Shown: positions 2,485 through 8,337, counted from the first letter of the stretch. The stretch: DNA of 64,000 bases from Aquipuribacter sp. SD81 (GCF_037153975.1 NZ_JBBAYJ010000004.1:62001-126000), one strand, 5' to 3'. Translations and numbers: made by a program. Notes: generated by a model not told the origin, from the letters alone.

Positions 2485-3051
2485 GTGCCCGTGTCGGCAG
2501 GGCGGTCGCGGGAGGCGGACCTGGCCCTCGCGCGCGCGGCCGCCCTCGGCGACCGCGAGGCCTTCGAGGAGGTCGTGCAGCGGCACGGTCCGGTCATGCT
2601 CCGCTACGCCCGCCGCGTGCTGCGCGACCGCGGCGACGCGGAGGAGGCGGTGCAGGACGCCCTCGTCGCCGCCTGGCGCACCATGGAGCGCTACCGCGGC
2701 GACTCGGCGCTGCGCACGTGGCTGCTCGGGCTCACCTCGCACAAGGCGCTCGACGTGGCCCGGCGGCGCCGGCCGCAGCCCGTGGACGACGAGGTGCTGG
2801 CCGCCACGCCGGCCGACGACCGCAGCGACCCGTGGGCGGCCACGAGCGGCAGCGAGCTCGCCGCGGCCCTCCAGGAGGCCCTGCTCGCGCTGCCCTACGG
2901 CCAGCGGGCCGCCTGGGTCCTCGTCGAGCTCGAGGGGATGACGCAGCAGGAGGCCGCGGACATCATGAGCACCACGCCCGACTCCGTGCGCGGGAACCTC
3001 TACCGCGCCCGTCGACGGCTCGAGGAGAGGATGGCGCGATGGCGACCGTGA
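2485..3051 (+). CDS. ECF-type RNA polymerase sigma factor
   Basis: A 188-residue alternative sigma factor that directs RNA polymerase to a dedicated regulon. Region 2 spans about residues 25-95 (AFEEVVQRHG, then [15 protein letters not shown]). Region 4 covers about 130-185 (MTQQEAADIM, SVRGNLYRARRRLEERM). There is no region 3, which fits the ECF class. The GTG start at 2485 opens the Asp23 cassette, and the next gene begins 7 bp after its stop. No classical zinc-binding anti-sigma gene follows; the usual anti-sigma slot holds an Asp23-like protein instead. Control of envelope homeostasis is inferred from this context. Confidence 0.9.
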   Translation: MPVSAGRSREADLALARAAALGDREAFEEVVQRHGPVMLRYARRVLRDRGDAEEAVQDALVAAWRTMERYRGDSALRTWLLGLTSHKALDVARRRRPQPVDDEVLAATPADDRSDPWAATSGSELAAALQEALLALPYGQRAAWVLVELEGMTQQEAADIMSTTPDSVRGNLYRARRRLEERMARWRP

Positions 3052-3058
3052 CGGCGGC

Positions 3059-3529
3059 ATGACGGCGCCGGACCCCGGGCCGGGCCCGGGCGCCGACGCG
3101 CTCGCCCGCGCCCGCGACGAGCTCCGCCGGGCCCGCCCGGACGACGCCGAGGGCTGGACGGCCTTCGCCGCCACCCTCCAGCGGCGCCTGCGCGACGTCG
3201 CCCGTCCCGGCCGGGCGCTGCGGGTGCTCGAGGACGGCCCGGCCGCGGCGGGCGCCGGCGTGCTGCGGGTCGACGAGCGCGTCGTCGCCGACGCCGCCCG
3301 ACGGGCGGTGGCCGCCACCGGTGCGCGGCTCGTCGGCCTCTTGCTCGATGTCACCGACGAGGTGCCGACCCGGGTGGCCCTCCAGGTGTGGGCGCCCTAC
3401 GGCACCGACGTCCGCGAGGCCGCCGACGGGGCCCGCGCCGCGGTGGCCCGGGTCGTCGAGGAGGTCCTCGCCCGCCGCTGCCCCGTCGACGTCGACGTCG
3501 TGGACGTGTGGACCGACGAGGCGTCGTGA
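3059..3529 (+). CDS. Asp23/Gls24-like protein in the anti-sigma position
   Basis: A 156-residue soluble protein. Its N-terminal 70 residues are Pro/Arg-rich and helical. The C-terminal part (about 75-150) has the Asp23/Gls24 pattern: a strand-helix start (LRVDERVVADAARRAV), a middle strand (RVALQVWAPYGTDV), a long helix (AARAAVARVVEEVLARR-like) and a closing strand (VDVDVVDVWT). Asp23 proteins form membrane-associated assemblies in Gram-positive envelopes. Because it directly follows the ECF sigma gene by 7 bp, it may sense the envelope for, or restrain, the sigma factor; that is inference. No Cys/His anti-sigma motif is visible. Confidence 0.6.
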   Translation: MTAPDPGPGPGADALARARDELRRARPDDAEGWTAFAATLQRRLRDVARPGRALRVLEDGPAAAGAGVLRVDERVVADAARRAVAATGARLVGLLLDVTDEVPTRVALQVWAPYGTDVREAADGARAAVARVVEEVLARRCPVDVDVVDVWTDEAS

Positions 3530-3635
3530 CGCAGGTCACAGCCGCAGGGCGTGCGGATCGGGCCGTCCGGCGCGACCCACTACCGGACGCGTCGGCAGCC
3601 CGCCGCCGCCCCGCCCCACGAGAGGACGCACGCCG

Positions 3636-4118
3636 ATGACCCAGAGCACCCCCGAGACCACGACCCGCTCCCGCGGGACGGCCGGCGGCGGCACCGTCGC
3701 GACGACCGGTTCCGCCGCCCTCGACAGCGGCCAGGGCCGCACGACCATCGCCGACACCGTCGTGTCGAAGATCGCCGGCATCGCGGCCCGCGACGTCGTC
3801 GGCGTGCACAGCCTCGGTGGCGGCGGCGCCCGTGCCGTCGCCGCGCTCCGCGAGCGCATCCCCGGCGGTCGGACCAACTACTCCCAGGGCGTGGCCGTCG
3901 AGGTGGGCGAGCGGCAGACCGCCGTCGACGTCGACATCGTCGCGGAGTACGGCGTCGCGATCGCCGACCTCGCCGCGGGGATCCGCGAGAACGTCATCAC
4001 CGCCGTGGAGCGCATGACGGGCCTGGAGGTCACCGAGGTCAACATCGTCGTCCACGACGTGCACGTCGAGAGCGACGACGACACCGACGACCAGGGCGAG
4101 CCCGCCCGGGTGCAGTGA
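3636..4118 (+). CDS. Asp23/Gls24 family envelope stress response protein
   Basis: The clearest Asp23 family member in the cassette, 160 residues. After a 35-residue polar N-terminus it shows the family core: IADTVVSKIAGIAARDVVGV, a Gly-rich turn, a strand with VAVEVGERQTAVDVDIVAEY, the helix GIRENVITAVERMTGLEV and the final strand VNIVVHDVHV. The tail is acidic (SDDDTDDQ). The ATG at 3636 is chosen because a GAGAGGA ribosome site lies just upstream (3620-3627). Its stop overlaps the next gene's GTG by 4 bp. It is probably anchored at the membrane by the AmaP-like partner at the end of the operon, as in staphylococci. Confidence 0.88.
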   Translation: MTQSTPETTTRSRGTAGGGTVATTGSAALDSGQGRTTIADTVVSKIAGIAARDVVGVHSLGGGGARAVAALRERIPGGRTNYSQGVAVEVGERQTAVDVDIVAEYGVAIADLAAGIRENVITAVERMTGLEVTEVNIVVHDVHVESDDDTDDQGEPARVQ

Positions 4119-4429
4119 GCCCGTCGGACCACCGGACCGCCGGCCGGCACGAGGCGGACGTCGTCCGCGAGACCGTGCTGTCGGTCCCGGGCGTGGTCGA
4201 CCTCCACGGCGGCTCCCTCGGCGAGGTCGGCACCTACCTGCCGGGCCGACGGGTCGTGGGGGTACGGCTGCGCCCCGAGCGCACCGAGGTGCACGTCGTC
4301 GTGACGCACGGCTCGCCCGTTCGGGCGACCGCGGACCTCGTCCGCGGCGCCGTGGCGCGGGTGCGGCCCGGCGCCGTCGACGTCACCGTCGAGGACGTGG
4401 CCCCCGCCCCGGCGCCGGGCCCGACGTGA
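4115..4429 (+). CDS. Second small Asp23-like protein
   Basis: A 104-residue protein beginning at the GTG of a GTGA overlap with the preceding stop. It retains a shortened Asp23 fold: a helix followed by VLSVPGVVDLHGGSLGEVGT, a strand (VVGVRLRPERTEVHVVV), the helix ATADLVRGAVARVRPGAV and a final strand (VDVTVEDV). The C-terminus is Pro/Ala-rich. It is cytoplasmic with no membrane segment. The overlap arrangement indicates translational coupling and a fixed stoichiometry with the neighbouring Asp23 proteins. Assignment rests on pattern similarity and context, so it is less certain than for 3636-4118. Confidence 0.7.
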   Translation: MSPSDHRTAGRHEADVVRETVLSVPGVVDLHGGSLGEVGTYLPGRRVVGVRLRPERTEVHVVVTHGSPVRATADLVRGAVARVRPGAVDVTVEDVAPAPAPGPT

Positions 4430-4698
4430 GCGAGGCCGCGGCGCTCCGGTCGGCCCGTCGCCAGCTGGCGCGCCGGCTGCACCCCGACCTCGGCGGGGAC
4501 CCCGAGGCCTACCTCGAAGCCATGGCCGCGCTCGACGCGCACGCGGCCCGCGCCGCCTCCCACGACGCCGTCGTGGTGGGGCGGACCGGGCGCCTGAGGC
4601 GCGCGCTGCCCGTCCGGCGCGTCCGCGGCGCCGTCCGCCGCGTGCAGCAGCACCTGCCGCGCCACCTGCCCGGCGCCCGTCGCTGGGCACGACTCTGA
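4426..4698 (+). CDS. Small basic protein with a truncated J-domain-like motif
   Basis: A 90-residue protein, GTG start, again overlapping the previous stop by 4 bp. Residues 11-32 (RRQLARRLHPDLGGDPEAYL) match the core of a J domain: helix II, the HPD triad at residues 19-21 with the GG that often follows it, and the start of helix III. Helix I is absent. The rest is Arg-rich (RGAVRRVQQHLPRHLP). In DnaJ-type proteins HPD stimulates Hsp70 ATPase; whether this shortened form does so is unknown. Its position inside an Asp23 operon suggests an assembly or disassembly role for the Asp23 complex, by inference only. Confidence 0.6.
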   Translation: MSEAAALRSARRQLARRLHPDLGGDPEAYLEAMAALDAHAARAASHDAVVVGRTGRLRRALPVRRVRGAVRRVQQHLPRHLPGARRWARL

Positions 4699-4730
4699 CC
4701 ACCCGCACTTCCCCACTCCTGGAGGACCAC

Positions 4731-4910
4731 ATGAGCTCCACCGCGACCGGGCTCCTCACCGGCCTGCTCCTCGCCATCGCCTGGACGACCGGCGGCTTCA
4801 CCGGCTTCCTGCTGGCGGTCGTGCTCGGCGCCGTCGGCGCCGTCGTCGGCCTGTGGCGGGACGGCAGGATCGACTCGTCGTCGTTCGGCCGCGGGCGACC
4901 GCGTGCCTGA
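4731..4910 (+). CDS. DUF2273-type small membrane protein
   Basis: A 59-residue membrane protein. The ATG at 4731 is preceded by a GGAGG ribosome site. Two hydrophobic segments (GLLTGLLLAIAWTTGG and FLLAVVLGAVGAVVGLW) are followed by a short polar tail (RDGRIDSSS). Small two-helix proteins of the DUF2273 family are regular members of Asp23/AmaP operons in Gram-positive bacteria. Its stop overlaps the start of the next Asp23-like gene (GTG at 4903) by 8 bp. Likely a membrane subunit for the Asp23 assembly. The family is recognised from size, topology and context. Confidence 0.8.
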   Translation: MSSTATGLLTGLLLAIAWTTGGFTGFLLAVVLGAVGAVVGLWRDGRIDSSSFGRGRPRA

Positions 4911-5274
4911 GCCGCTCGCCGCACCGGCCGACCGCGGCCACCTCGAGGTGCGTTCCGTGGTGCTGGACCGCGTCGCCGGTCGAGCCGCCGGCGGCGTCCG
5001 CGGGGTCGTCCCGGGGAAGGTCGGCCGCCTCACCCGGCGGCGGCTGCCGCACGTCGAGACGCACACCGAGACGCGCGCCGACGGTGAGCACGCCCGCCTG
5101 CGGGTCGAGGTCGCCGTCGCCTGGGGGCACCGCCTCGACGTGGTGGCCGGCGGCGTCCAGTCCGCCGTCGTCGACACGGTCCGGCGGCTCACGGGGGTGC
5201 AGGTCGACCGGGTCGACGTCAGCGTCGACGACGTCGTCGTCCCGGAGCAGCCCGAGGAGAGGAGGGTGTCATGA
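4903..5274 (+). CDS. Asp23-like protein, third soluble paralogue
   Basis: A 123-residue soluble protein starting at GTG 4903 inside the end of the DUF2273 gene. It has a basic segment (GKVGRLTRRRLPHVE), then strand ETRADGEHARLRVEVAVAWG, the helix AGGVQSAVVDTVRRLTGVQV and the last strand VDRVDVSVDDVVV, which together follow the Asp23 core order. It ends in an acidic, then basic stretch (EQPEERRVS). Its stop overlaps the DUF6286 gene by 4 bp. With the proteins at 3059, 3636 and 4115 it makes four Asp23-like products in one cassette, suggesting a hetero-oligomeric assembly. Confidence 0.7.
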   Translation: MPEPLAAPADRGHLEVRSVVLDRVAGRAAGGVRGVVPGKVGRLTRRRLPHVETHTETRADGEHARLRVEVAVAWGHRLDVVAGGVQSAVVDTVRRLTGVQVDRVDVSVDDVVVPEQPEERRVS

Positions 5275-5909
5275 GCGCCGAGACCGCGGCGCCGGCGCAC
5301 GAGGAGACGCCGACCCGTCCCGACGCCGCCCGAGAGGCCACGGTGCCGACCGCCGGCGTGCCGCTCGGCGTCCCCGCCGTCGCGGGCGTGGCCGTCGTGC
5401 TCTGCCTCGCCCTCGTCGCGGCGGGCGTGGTCCTGCTGCGCGAGGTGCTCGTCGACCGCGTGGTCGCTGGTCGTGTTCTTGTCCCCGGCGAGCCGTGGCT
5501 CGCCCCGGCCGCCGAGGAGGCGACCGGCGTCGTGCAGGGCACGCTCACGGTCGGCGTCGGGGCGGTGTCCGCCCTGGTCGGCCTGCTCCTGCTCGTCCTC
5601 GCCGTGCGTCGCCGACCGCGGCTCGGGACCGCGTGGCGCCCCGCGGACGCGGAGCTGCCGCTGTGGGTGTCCGGGGCCGGCGTGGCCGCGGTCGCGGCGG
5701 ACGCCGCCCTCGCCGCGGACCCCGTCGAGACGTCCCGCGCCCGGGCCCGACGGCGCCGCGTGGACGTCGACGTCAGCGTCGACCCCCGCGACGGCCACGG
5801 CCGCAGCGCCGTCGAGACCGACGTCCGCGAGCGCGTCGAGCAGGCCCTGCGCGGTCTCGCGACGCAGCCGCGGGTGCGGGTGCACGTGCACGGGGCGGTG
5901 GCCCGGTGA
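5271..5909 (+). CDS. DUF6286-type membrane protein of the Asp23 cassette
   Basis: A 212-residue protein with two membrane segments, about residues 35-62 (VAGVAVVLCLALVAAGVVLL) and 90-110 (VGVGAVSALVGLLLLVLAV). They are linked by an external loop and followed by a basic cytoplasmic domain (RARARRRRVDVDVSVDPRDG). That domain, with its helix TDVRERVEQALRGLA and strand VRVHVHGAV, resembles a half Asp23 module. Proteins of this kind (DUF6286) lie between DUF2273 and AmaP in actinobacterial Asp23 operons. Both ends overlap neighbours by 4 bp. A membrane-anchoring or scaffolding role is likely. Confidence 0.75.
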   Translation: MSAETAAPAHEETPTRPDAAREATVPTAGVPLGVPAVAGVAVVLCLALVAAGVVLLREVLVDRVVAGRVLVPGEPWLAPAAEEATGVVQGTLTVGVGAVSALVGLLLLVLAVRRRPRLGTAWRPADAELPLWVSGAGVAAVAADAALAADPVETSRARARRRRVDVDVSVDPRDGHGRSAVETDVRERVEQALRGLATQPRVRVHVHGAVAR

Positions 5910-6499
5910 GCCGCGGGGCGCTGGCCCTGGACCGGGTCGCCGTGGCGCTCCTCGGTCTCGTGCTCCTGGTCGGCGGCGGGCTGCTCGCCGTGTGGGGCCT
6001 CGGGCGCCTGCCCGGCACCGTCGACGAGATCGACCTAGGTGTGCTGCGCGGCCTCCCCGCCCACCCATGGTGGCCGTGGGCGGTCGGGGTCGCGGGCGCG
6101 GTGGCCGTCCTCGCGGGGCTCCGGGCGCTCTTCGCCCACACGGTGCGACCGCGCGTGCGGGACGTGACGTTCGCCGCGGCCGGCGACGGCACCGACGACG
6201 CACGTCGCCCGGGCGGGCGGCTCCAGGCCGACCTGCCCGCGGTGGCGGACGCCGCGGCCGAGGTGCTCTCGCAGGCCCCCGGCGTGCACGGCTGCCAGGG
6301 CCGGGCGGTGCCGGGACGGGACGGTGCCGTCGTGGACCTGCGGGCGCGGGTCGCCGCGGAGACCGACCCCGCGGCCCTGCACCGGGCGGTGCAGGCGGTC
6401 GCGGACGGCCTCGCCCGGACACTGCCCCCGGGCACCGCGTCGCTGCGGGTGAGTCTCGACGTGCGACGCGGCCGCTACGAGGCGCCGCGCGTCCGCTGA
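5906..6499 (+). CDS. amaP: AmaP-like alkaline shock response membrane anchor
   Basis: A 197-residue protein with two N-terminal membrane segments (ALLGLVLLVGGGLLAVWGLG and WAVGVAGAVAVLAGLRALF), then a cytoplasmic Asp23-like domain from about residue 100 (ADLPAVADAAAEVLSQAPGV through LRVSLDVRRGRYEAP). This is the layout of AmaP, which tethers Asp23 to the membrane in staphylococci. It is the last gene of the cassette, starting at the GTG of a GTGA overlap at 5906. The minus-strand paa cluster begins just beyond. Function is by homology and context; the symbol is used in that sense. Confidence 0.75.
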   Translation: MSRGALALDRVAVALLGLVLLVGGGLLAVWGLGRLPGTVDEIDLGVLRGLPAHPWWPWAVGVAGAVAVLAGLRALFAHTVRPRVRDVTFAAAGDGTDDARRPGGRLQADLPAVADAAAEVLSQAPGVHGCQGRAVPGRDGAVVDLRARVAAETDPAALHRAVQAVADGLARTLPPGTASLRVSLDVRRGRYEAPRVR

Positions 6500-6706: not shown

Positions 6707-7807
6707 TCAGACGAACTCCACACGCAGCGTGGGGGTGGTCGGCCGCGACTGGCACATGAGCCGCAGGCCGCGCTGCAGCTCGTCGGGCTCCAGCGCGTAG
6801 TTGGCGTCCATCTCGACCTCGCCCTCGACCACCTGGGCGCGGCACGTGCCGCACACCCCGCCGCGGCACGCGTACGGCGCGTCGGCGCGGGCGCGGAGGA
6901 CGGCGTCGAGCACGGTCTCGTCCCCGCCGGACATGTCGAGCGACGTGCGCCGCCCCTCCAGCAGGACGTCCACCTGCGTCGTGCCGGCCGCGTCGGCGGC
7001 CCTCGGCCGCGGCGCGACGGGCTCGGCGTGGAACAGCTCGACGTGCACGCGGGCGCGGTCCACCCCCAGGTCGCCCGTCAGGGTGTCGCGGACGGCCGTC
7101 ACCATCTCCAGCGGCCCGCACAGGAACCACTCGTCGACGTCACCGACATCGAGCAGCGTCCCCGCGAGCGCGAGCAGCCGCTCGCGGTCGATGCGCCCGC
7201 TGAGCAGCGGCGACTCCTGCTCCTCCCGGCTCAGGACGTTGAGCAGGCGGAACCGCGCGCCCCACCGGTCCCGCAGGTCGTACAGGTCCTCGAGGAACAT
7301 GACGTCGCGCGCCGTGCGGTTGCCGTACAGCAGCGTGACCCGGCTGCCCGGCTCACCGGCGAGGACGGCTCGGGCGATGCCGAGCACCGGCGTGATGCCG
7401 CTCCCGGCGACGACACCGGCGACGTGCCTGGCCCGGGCGGGGTCGACGTCGGTGCCGAAGCTGCCACCGGGGGCCGCGACGTCGAGCGTGTCGCCGGGGC
7501 GCAGGTCCTGCGTGGCGTACCGCGTGAAGACGCCGTCCGGGATCGCCTTGATGCCGACGGTCAGGTGCTCGCCGTCCGGCTCCCCGCACAGCGAGTACGT
7601 GCGGCGGACCTCCTGCCCGCCGAGCACGGCGCGCAGCGTCAGGTGCTGCCCGGGCCGGGCGGCGAAGAGCGGCCGCAGCCGGGCCGGCACCCCGAGCGAG
7701 ACGGCGACGGCGTCGTCGGTGAGGCGCTCGACGGCCGTGACGGGCAGGGCGTGGAACGCGCCCTGCGGCAGCTCGGCGGCGCTCGCGCCCGTGCTCGTGT
7801 CGGTCAC
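6707..7807 (-). CDS. paaE: 1,2-phenylacetyl-CoA epoxidase, reductase subunit PaaE
   Basis: A 366-residue oxidoreductase that passes electrons from NADPH through FAD and a 2Fe-2S cluster to the PaaA diiron centre. An FAD-binding domain (RTYSLCGEPD), an NAD(P)-binding domain (GVVAGSGITPVLGIARAVL, FLCGPLEMV) and a C-terminal plant-type ferredoxin domain with cluster cysteines (CRGGVCGTCRAQV, then LMCQS) appear in that order. The length matches the family. The start is a GTG at 7807, 2 bp after the paaD stop. It is the last core subunit of the epoxidase operon and is probably translated with paaD. Confidence 0.95.
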   Translation of the reverse strand: MTDTSTGASAAELPQGAFHALPVTAVERLTDDAVAVSLGVPARLRPLFAARPGQHLTLRAVLGGQEVRRTYSLCGEPDGEHLTVGIKAIPDGVFTRYATQDLRPGDTLDVAAPGGSFGTDVDPARARHVAGVVAGSGITPVLGIARAVLAGEPGSRVTLLYGNRTARDVMFLEDLYDLRDRWGARFRLLNVLSREEQESPLLSGRIDRERLLALAGTLLDVGDVDEWFLCGPLEMVTAVRDTLTGDLGVDRARVHVELFHAEPVAPRPRAADAAGTTQVDVLLEGRRTSLDMSGGDETVLDAVLRARADAPYACRGGVCGTCRAQVVEGEVEMDANYALEPDELQRGLRLMCQSRPTTPTLRVEFV

Positions 7808-7809
7808 CC

Positions 7810-8337
7810 TCAGAACTCCTTGAAGTGGTCGAACGGCTCGCGGCAGGCCCGGCACCGCCACAGCGACTTGCACGCCGTCGACGCGAAGCGCGCGAGCTCC
7901 TCGGTGTCGCGGGAGCCGCAGCGCGGACAGGTCGGGGCCGGGGTGCCGTCGCCCGCCCCGAGACCGGGCCGGTAGCCGAGCTCGAGCGGCACGGGGCCGC
8001 CCGACGGCCGCGGCCCGGGCGGGGCGATGCCGTACTCGGCGAGCTTGCGACGGCCGTCCGCGCTCATCCAGTCCGTCGTCCACGACGGCTCGAGCACGAG
8101 CCGCACGTCGACGCCGGCGGCCCCCGCGCCGAGCAGCGCCGAGCGCACGTCGGCGGTGATCTCGTCCATGGCCGGGCAGCCGGAGTAGGTGGGGGTGATG
8201 TCGACGCGCACCGTGCCGTCGTCGGTCACCGTCACCCCGCGCAGGATGCCGAGGTCGGCGATGGTGAGGACCGGGATCTCCGGGTCCGTCACCTGCTCGA
8301 GGACCCGGACGGCGTCGTCGGGGGTGAGCACCGGCAC
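7810..8337 (-). CDS. paaD: Phenylacetyl-CoA epoxidase accessory protein PaaD
   Basis: A 175-residue protein of the MIP18/SufT-like class, needed for maturation of the multicomponent epoxidase, probably through iron-sulfur cluster handling. The DUF59 domain (residues about 1-90) contains VTDPEIPVLTIADLGILRGV and TYSGCPAMDEI. The C-terminus carries a CxxC...CxxC knuckle (CPRCGSRD, WRCRACREPFDHFKEF) typical of PaaD. I place the start at GTG 8337, because the preceding in-frame codon group contains only a GTA near the paaC stop. It begins 2 bp after that stop. Confidence 0.93.
   Translation of the reverse strand: MPVLTPDDAVRVLEQVTDPEIPVLTIADLGILRGVTVTDDGTVRVDITPTYSGCPAMDEITADVRSALLGAGAAGVDVRLVLEPSWTTDWMSADGRRKLAEYGIAPPGPRPSGGPVPLELGYRPGLGAGDGTPAPTCPRCGSRDTEELARFASTACKSLWRCRACREPFDHFKEF

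Follow-up and report, generated by a model that had tools for sequence, protein, structure and literature searches.

What does an Asp23-like protein do in the anti-sigma slot behind an extracytoplasmic function (ECF) sigma gene? The question is raised by a 64,000-nucleotide stretch of Aquipuribacter sp. SD81 (NZ_JBBAYJ010000004.1:62001-126000; hereafter the window), in which nine plus-strand genes at positions 2485–6499, all present by translation and profile scans, comprise a sigma gene, its Asp23-like neighbour aspA, and a cassette that runs from aspB to amaP. A sequence-only reading of the locus had placed AspA in the anti-sigma slot, and that placement is now well supported by the conserved linkage of the two genes and by counterparts of AspA that carry a zinc anti-sigma (ZAS) domain ahead of Asp23. 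We consider it likely that AspA is the soluble anti-sigma factor of the ECF sigma factor encoded beside it, with the aspB–amaP cassette as the target of the pair. The pair is as follows.

2485..3051, plus strand: ECF sigma factor with regions 2 and 4 (Pfam Sigma70_r2, E = 2.8e-15; Sigma70_r4_2, 1.1e-11; NCBIfam sigma70-ECF, 1.2e-26)
3059..3529, plus strand: AspA, an N-terminal two-helix hairpin (residues 10–48) followed by an Asp23 domain (Pfam Asp23, E = 0.0083, weak); probable zinc-free soluble anti-sigma factor

Conserved pairing of sigma factor and Asp23-like protein

Relatives were chosen through AspB, from 40 places in same-order genomes and 80 named genome records, which makes the choice of loci independent of both the sigma factor and AspA. 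An Asp23-like gene lies directly behind the sigma gene at 66 of the 67 AspB-chosen loci with an uncut sigma gene, so that the gene-order comparison bears out the sigma–Asp23 linkage. Over all pairs the commonest joint is a 10-bp overlap as called (99 pairs), followed by a 4-bp overlap (14). Sixty further places were found through AspA, a set biased by design; 56 are paired with a sigma gene, and one more has a sigma gene followed by an AspC-like protein. The pairing is strongly conserved and widespread in actinobacteria, with examples in Rhodococcus, Mycolicibacterium, Nocardia, Nocardioides, Aeromicrobium, Kineococcus, Geodermatophilus, Kribbella, Cellulomonas, Georgenia, Isoptericola, Lentzea and Streptomyces.

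The position of the pair relative to the AspB cassette is more variable. Across 113 loci the two are divergent at 92, on the same strand with the sigma gene first, as in the window, at 13, and arranged with the pair after the cassette at 8. Both congeners have the divergent arrangement, and the one with enough flanking sequence shares the right flank of the window (a PaaE-like gene) and differs on the left. In the window, a conserved gene set seems to have been rearranged locally, although misassembly could instead account for the order. The opposite orientation in the congeners and the differing left flank would suit a pair that came to lie beside the cassette by chance or local rearrangement, but the linkage at 66 of 67 loci, the domain fusion in AspA counterparts and the shared promoter motif (both below) make this very improbable, and a chance neighbourhood was rejected on the linkage survey.

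A zinc anti-sigma domain in AspA counterparts

An HxxxCxxC motif precedes the Asp23 domain in 46 of 120 non-redundant AspA proteins and in none of 405 other Asp23 open reading frames from the same loci. An upstream cysteine is invariant in all 40 aligned zinc forms, though it was not selected for, which extends the motif to C...H-x3-C-x2-C; a CHCC motif marks ZAS factors (PMC5358783). The NCBIfam 'anti-sigma factor' model matches 12 of these 40 proteins (best E = 1.7e-5), and a few match the RsrA or ChrR models. When the zinc-form profile was compared with the whole PDB, the two best chains were RsiW (E = 0.019) and 3hug_B (E = 0.056), the latter, in our reading, the RslA domain of M. tuberculosis. 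Both are of the expected kind and both matches cover the zinc site, that to RsiW including the fourth helix as well. An AlphaFold2 model of a Nocardia zinc form (predicted local distance difference test score, pLDDT, 85.7) has four helices, then an Asp23-type fold as in AspA of the window.

Eleven proteins have lost the zinc ligands but kept the domain. A starred branch of the sigma tree separates 56 zinc-free rows, a clade that includes the window, from a side of 64 rows that holds all 46 zinc forms. In this unrooted tree, loss of the zinc site is the simpler reading of the direction of change, since the eroded forms are found in the midst of zinc forms. The presence of a ZAS domain in the counterparts strengthens the anti-sigma reading of AspA.

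A probable reduced anti-sigma domain in AspA of the window

Hydropathy predicts no membrane segment in AspA of the window, and the protein is predicted to be soluble. Its AlphaFold2 model (mean pLDDT 85.8) has helices at residues 10–25 and 30–48, then the Asp23 fold. The N-termini of short forms such as this one align in register with helices 3 and 4 of the zinc forms (hhalign E = 3.4e-4, probability 38%; control against the Asp23 part, 0.016 and 3%), and their hairpin is conserved at its main positions (A 93%, R 88%, L 84%, W 82%, R 86%). In RsiW, helix 3, the linker and helix 4 occupy the sigma groove; RsiW binds SigW even when zinc is absent, and E. coli RseA lacks a zinc site altogether (PMC5358783). 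Judged from the models and alignments, AspA of the window appears to keep just the last two helices of the ZAS domain, which is why we read it as probably a zinc-free soluble anti-sigma factor. In a Foldseek search for an anti-sigma fold, the Asp23 domain dominated the matches (C-terminal domain of MamM, OsmC), which made the search uninformative. The Asp23 domain in the AlphaFold2 models m310d2cdf30ad and m6715ad818abc is similar in structure to this domain of MamM, a metal transporter (Foldseek, target TM-score ~0.6–0.7).

Several results weigh against an anti-sigma pair that controls the cassette. Pfam and NCBIfam searches detect no classical anti-sigma domain in the 3059–3529 protein, and the zinc ligands (C/H...H-x3-C-x2-C) are absent from its sequence. 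The alignment of its hairpin with the anti-sigma domain (ASD) is weak (hhalign probability 38%), as are the PDB matches of the zinc forms taken singly. The cassette can also dispense with a sigma gene, as none was detected within the fetched stretch at 54 of 180 loci (among them L035, L036, L088 and L094). Both the anti-sigma role and the targeting of the cassette are read from sequence.

That profile searches detect no anti-sigma domain in the short forms would also suit an AspA that works as an adaptor or co-activator, bringing the sigma factor to the Asp23 scaffold or stabilising it, with anti-sigma activity lost from the short forms. This is improbable, since the short-form hairpin is conserved and placed as ASD helices 3 and 4, and the sigma linkage of the short forms is as strict as that of the zinc forms.

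A conserved promoter motif before aspB

The 106-bp gap between aspA and aspB contains two elements.

3550..3579, plus strand: candidate ECF-type promoter motif of the aspB cassette, CGTGCGGAT-N12-CGCGACCCA
3525..3540, no strand assigned: CRP-like palindrome CGTGAC-GCAG-GTCACA, which overlaps the stop codon of AspA and lies just upstream of the promoter motif

The first agrees with a consensus found upstream of AspB in sigma-linked loci, CGTGASGAT-N11/12-cGyGTCcaA, and its layout, with −35-like and −10-like blocks at ECF-like spacing, fits a sigma target. Scores above 12 bits occur at 88 of 112 sigma-linked loci, compared with 2.7 in shuffles, and a model trained on one half of the loci recovers the motif in 44 of 56 held-out loci, compared with 1 in shuffles. 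At 14 bits, with the model trained on the linked set, the motif is present at 82 of 112 sigma-linked loci and 12 of 54 without a nearby sigma gene (Fisher p = 5.5e-10). The window site scores 13.2 with its own genus left out, a value reached by 3 of 500 shuffles, and it is the sole match to the promoter pattern in the 64-kb window. Both congeners carry the motif before aspB; in Nocardia and Lentzea, where the sigma gene leads the cassette, it stands before the sigma gene.

Because the motif occupies the gap before aspB, and the sigma–aspA pair of the congeners points the other way, the sigma factor most likely drives the aspB–amaP cassette. The strict pattern has one other match in the window's own genome, with no clear target gene nearby, and when the pattern is relaxed and run on three genomes of the genus, the aspB site alone recurs by place; a wide regulon was accordingly rejected. 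The motif could instead be read by another sigma factor or regulator, with the sigma–AspA pair acting mainly elsewhere. The adjoining palindrome and the motif at 12 of 54 cassettes without a nearby sigma gene speak for such a reader, but the enrichment at sigma-linked loci and the motif before the sigma gene itself in Nocardia and Lentzea render it unlikely. Cassettes that have the motif and no nearby sigma gene are perhaps controlled from a second locus.

GTGA-N6-TCAC palindromes are of the type bound by CRP/GlxR regulators. They occur in 51 of 169 AspB upstream regions, compared with 0.5 in shuffles, and the one beside the promoter suggests a second, global input to the cassette.

The conserved promoter-like element in the 106-bp gap also leads us to read positions 2485–6499 as probably two transcription units. 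The sequence-only reading had described one tightly packed unit: the nine plus-strand genes stand, and a single operon is weakened by the motif in the gap and by the opposite orientation of the sigma–aspA pair in the congeners.

Gene content of the cassette

Downstream of the putative promoter, the cassette consists of the following genes.

3636..4118, plus strand: AspB, the main Asp23 protein (Pfam Asp23, E = 6.8e-30)
4115..4429, plus strand: AspC, a small Asp23-like protein (Pfam Asp23, E = 0.063)
4426..4698, plus strand: small J-like protein with an HPD motif and a basic tail (Pfam DnaJ, E = 0.22, weak alone)
4731..4910, plus strand: DUF2273-like small, hydrophobic membrane protein (Pfam, E = 0.00026; 21.4 bits, cut-off 25.4)
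4903..5274, plus strand: AspD, an Asp23 protein (Pfam Asp23, E = 9.3e-11)
5271..5909, plus strand: DUF6286 membrane protein with two membrane segments by hydropathy (Pfam, E = 9.2e-10; 39.4 bits, cut-off 35)
5906..6499, plus strand: AmaP-like membrane anchor with two membrane segments by hydropathy (NCBIfam anchor_AmaP, E = 3.7e-8)

The gene families named by the sequence-only reading are all there, the J-domain-like, DUF2273 and AmaP-like matches being weak. The 5906–6499 protein scores 33.3 bits and does not reach the curated AmaP cut-off of 55 bits (NF033218), hence the term AmaP-like. AspB and AspD lie above the Pfam Asp23 cut-off (PF03780), AspA and AspC below it; the count of four Asp23-like proteins nevertheless stands, because the family profiles of AspA and AspC join that of AspB (hhalign probability 97.6% and 97.4%). 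The HPD motif and a glycine-rich turn are present in 40 of 40 hits of the J-like family (loci L031–L210), and the cassette's own member, at ~90 aa with a basic C-terminal tail, resembles a mini J-protein. We count five overlapping joints of 4–8 bp (4115/4118, 4426/4429, 4903/4910, 5271/5274 and 5906/5909) where six had been reported; the remaining gaps are 7 bp between sigma and AspA, 32 bp between the J-like and DUF2273-like genes, and the 106 bp before aspB.

Three observations concern the flanks. A PaaE-like ferredoxin reductase with Fer2, NAD- and FAD-binding domains lies on the minus strand at 6707–7813 and adjoins the cassette in one congener too, and the minus-strand open reading frames beyond 7813, to about 10500, read like a phenylacetate-degradation set. 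On the other side, divergent from the sigma gene, a minus-strand gene at 1266–2390 encodes a FUSC_2-like membrane protein (E = 0.0021, below cut-off); it was not found beside the locus in the one congener examined.

A model for sigma control by a probable Asp23-type anti-sigma factor

In our model, AspA would hold the sigma factor through its N-terminal helix hairpin, a reduced and zinc-free ZAS domain, while its Asp23 domain would serve as the sensory or tethering part. A signal would free the sigma factor to transcribe aspB-aspC-J-DUF2273-aspD-DUF6286-amaP from the promoter at 3550–3579, and the products would build an Asp23 scaffold, which AmaP-like proteins would hold to the membrane's inner face. 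By analogy with Asp23 and AmaP of Staphylococcus aureus, it is possible, if short of probable, that the Asp23 domain of AspA joins this scaffold, such that envelope stress frees the sigma factor and new scaffold shuts it off again. A related proposal, in which the scaffold itself is the sensor, AspA co-assembling with an AmaP-anchored lattice whose integrity sets sigma activity and whose operon is the main target, we put forward tentatively. The sequence-only reading had proposed a membrane-anchored, multi-subunit envelope sensor with an assembly state that could control the sigma factor, which we treat as a hypothesis.

In the main alternative, AspA would be an anti-sigma factor whose Asp23 domain stays apart from the membrane scaffold and either responds to a signal in the cytoplasm or serves for dimerisation alone, the cassette being simply the target. 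We regard this as a serious possibility, although not one we would call probable. AspA is predicted to be soluble, a review describes the sensing of cytoplasmic signals by other soluble ECF anti-sigma factors (PMC8999054), and the zinc forms could sense redox state as RsrA does; yet the sensor domain of AspA shares its fold with the target scaffold proteins, and AspA distances track those of AmaP, neither point being decisive. Given AspB, the distance correlations are 0.48 for sigma–AspA, 0.25 for sigma–AmaP and 0.50 for AspA–AmaP, which is suggestive only.

Relation to known systems

The passage of the same review that covers these groups lists ECF286 (example, Streptomyces rimosus) and ECF292 (example, Mycolicibacterium cosmeticum), defined by Casas-Pastor et al. 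2021, as adjoining soluble proteins of the Asp23 family, for which an anti-sigma role is predicted (PMC8999054). Both share with the window an ECF sigma gene beside a soluble Asp23-family protein, here 7 bp behind it. Because these groups are already listed, the window pair is a member of a predicted kind. In the sigma tree, Streptomyces belongs to the side that holds the zinc forms, and Mycolicibacterium and the window share the zinc-free clade; we guess from tree neighbours that the window sigma factor is ECF292-like. The claim that the wiring had not been described thus holds in part: an Asp23-family anti-sigma factor had been predicted, and no experimental study of such a pair was found in a full-text literature search, the coverage of which mostly excludes subscription papers. 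What is added here to the account in the review passage is the ZAS–Asp23 fusion and its erosion, the cassette promoter motif, neither fusion nor promoter being mentioned there (PMC8999054), and the two-unit reading.

The AspA counterparts resemble the soluble ZAS anti-sigma factors RsrA, ChrR and RshA in having the same C...HxxxCxxC domain directly behind an ECF sigma gene. They differ in the added Asp23 domain, and in AspA of the window the zinc site is gone and helices 1 and 2 probably are as well. The cassette recalls Staphylococcus aureus, in which AmaP tethers Asp23 to the membrane, Asp23 can form filaments, and deletion of asp23 or amaP induces a cell-wall stress response, although the role of Asp23 there is described as still unclear (PMC6954212). 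Asp23 proteins with AmaP-like and DUF2273-like membrane proteins are common to both, whereas the window has several Asp23 paralogues, DUF6286, a J-like protein and an ECF sigma factor with a dedicated, probable anti-sigma partner, and its AmaP and DUF2273 matches lie below the curated cut-offs. SigX–CfrX of Pseudomonas aeruginosa (ECF102), where according to the review passage a link between the soluble putative anti-sigma factor and a mechanosensing complex in the membrane has been proposed (PMC8999054), differs in its proteins and is alike in way of working only.

The sequences of the ZAS–Asp23 fusions are independent evidence for the anti-sigma role, which the review passage gives purely as a prediction (PMC8999054). 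Across actinobacteria, genes for the Asp23 scaffold appear to be under the control of a dedicated sigma/anti-sigma pair whose anti-sigma member itself contains an Asp23 domain, which links scaffold and transcription in one short locus. If the scaffold is the sensor, the locus would be a self-contained thermostat for the envelope scaffold.

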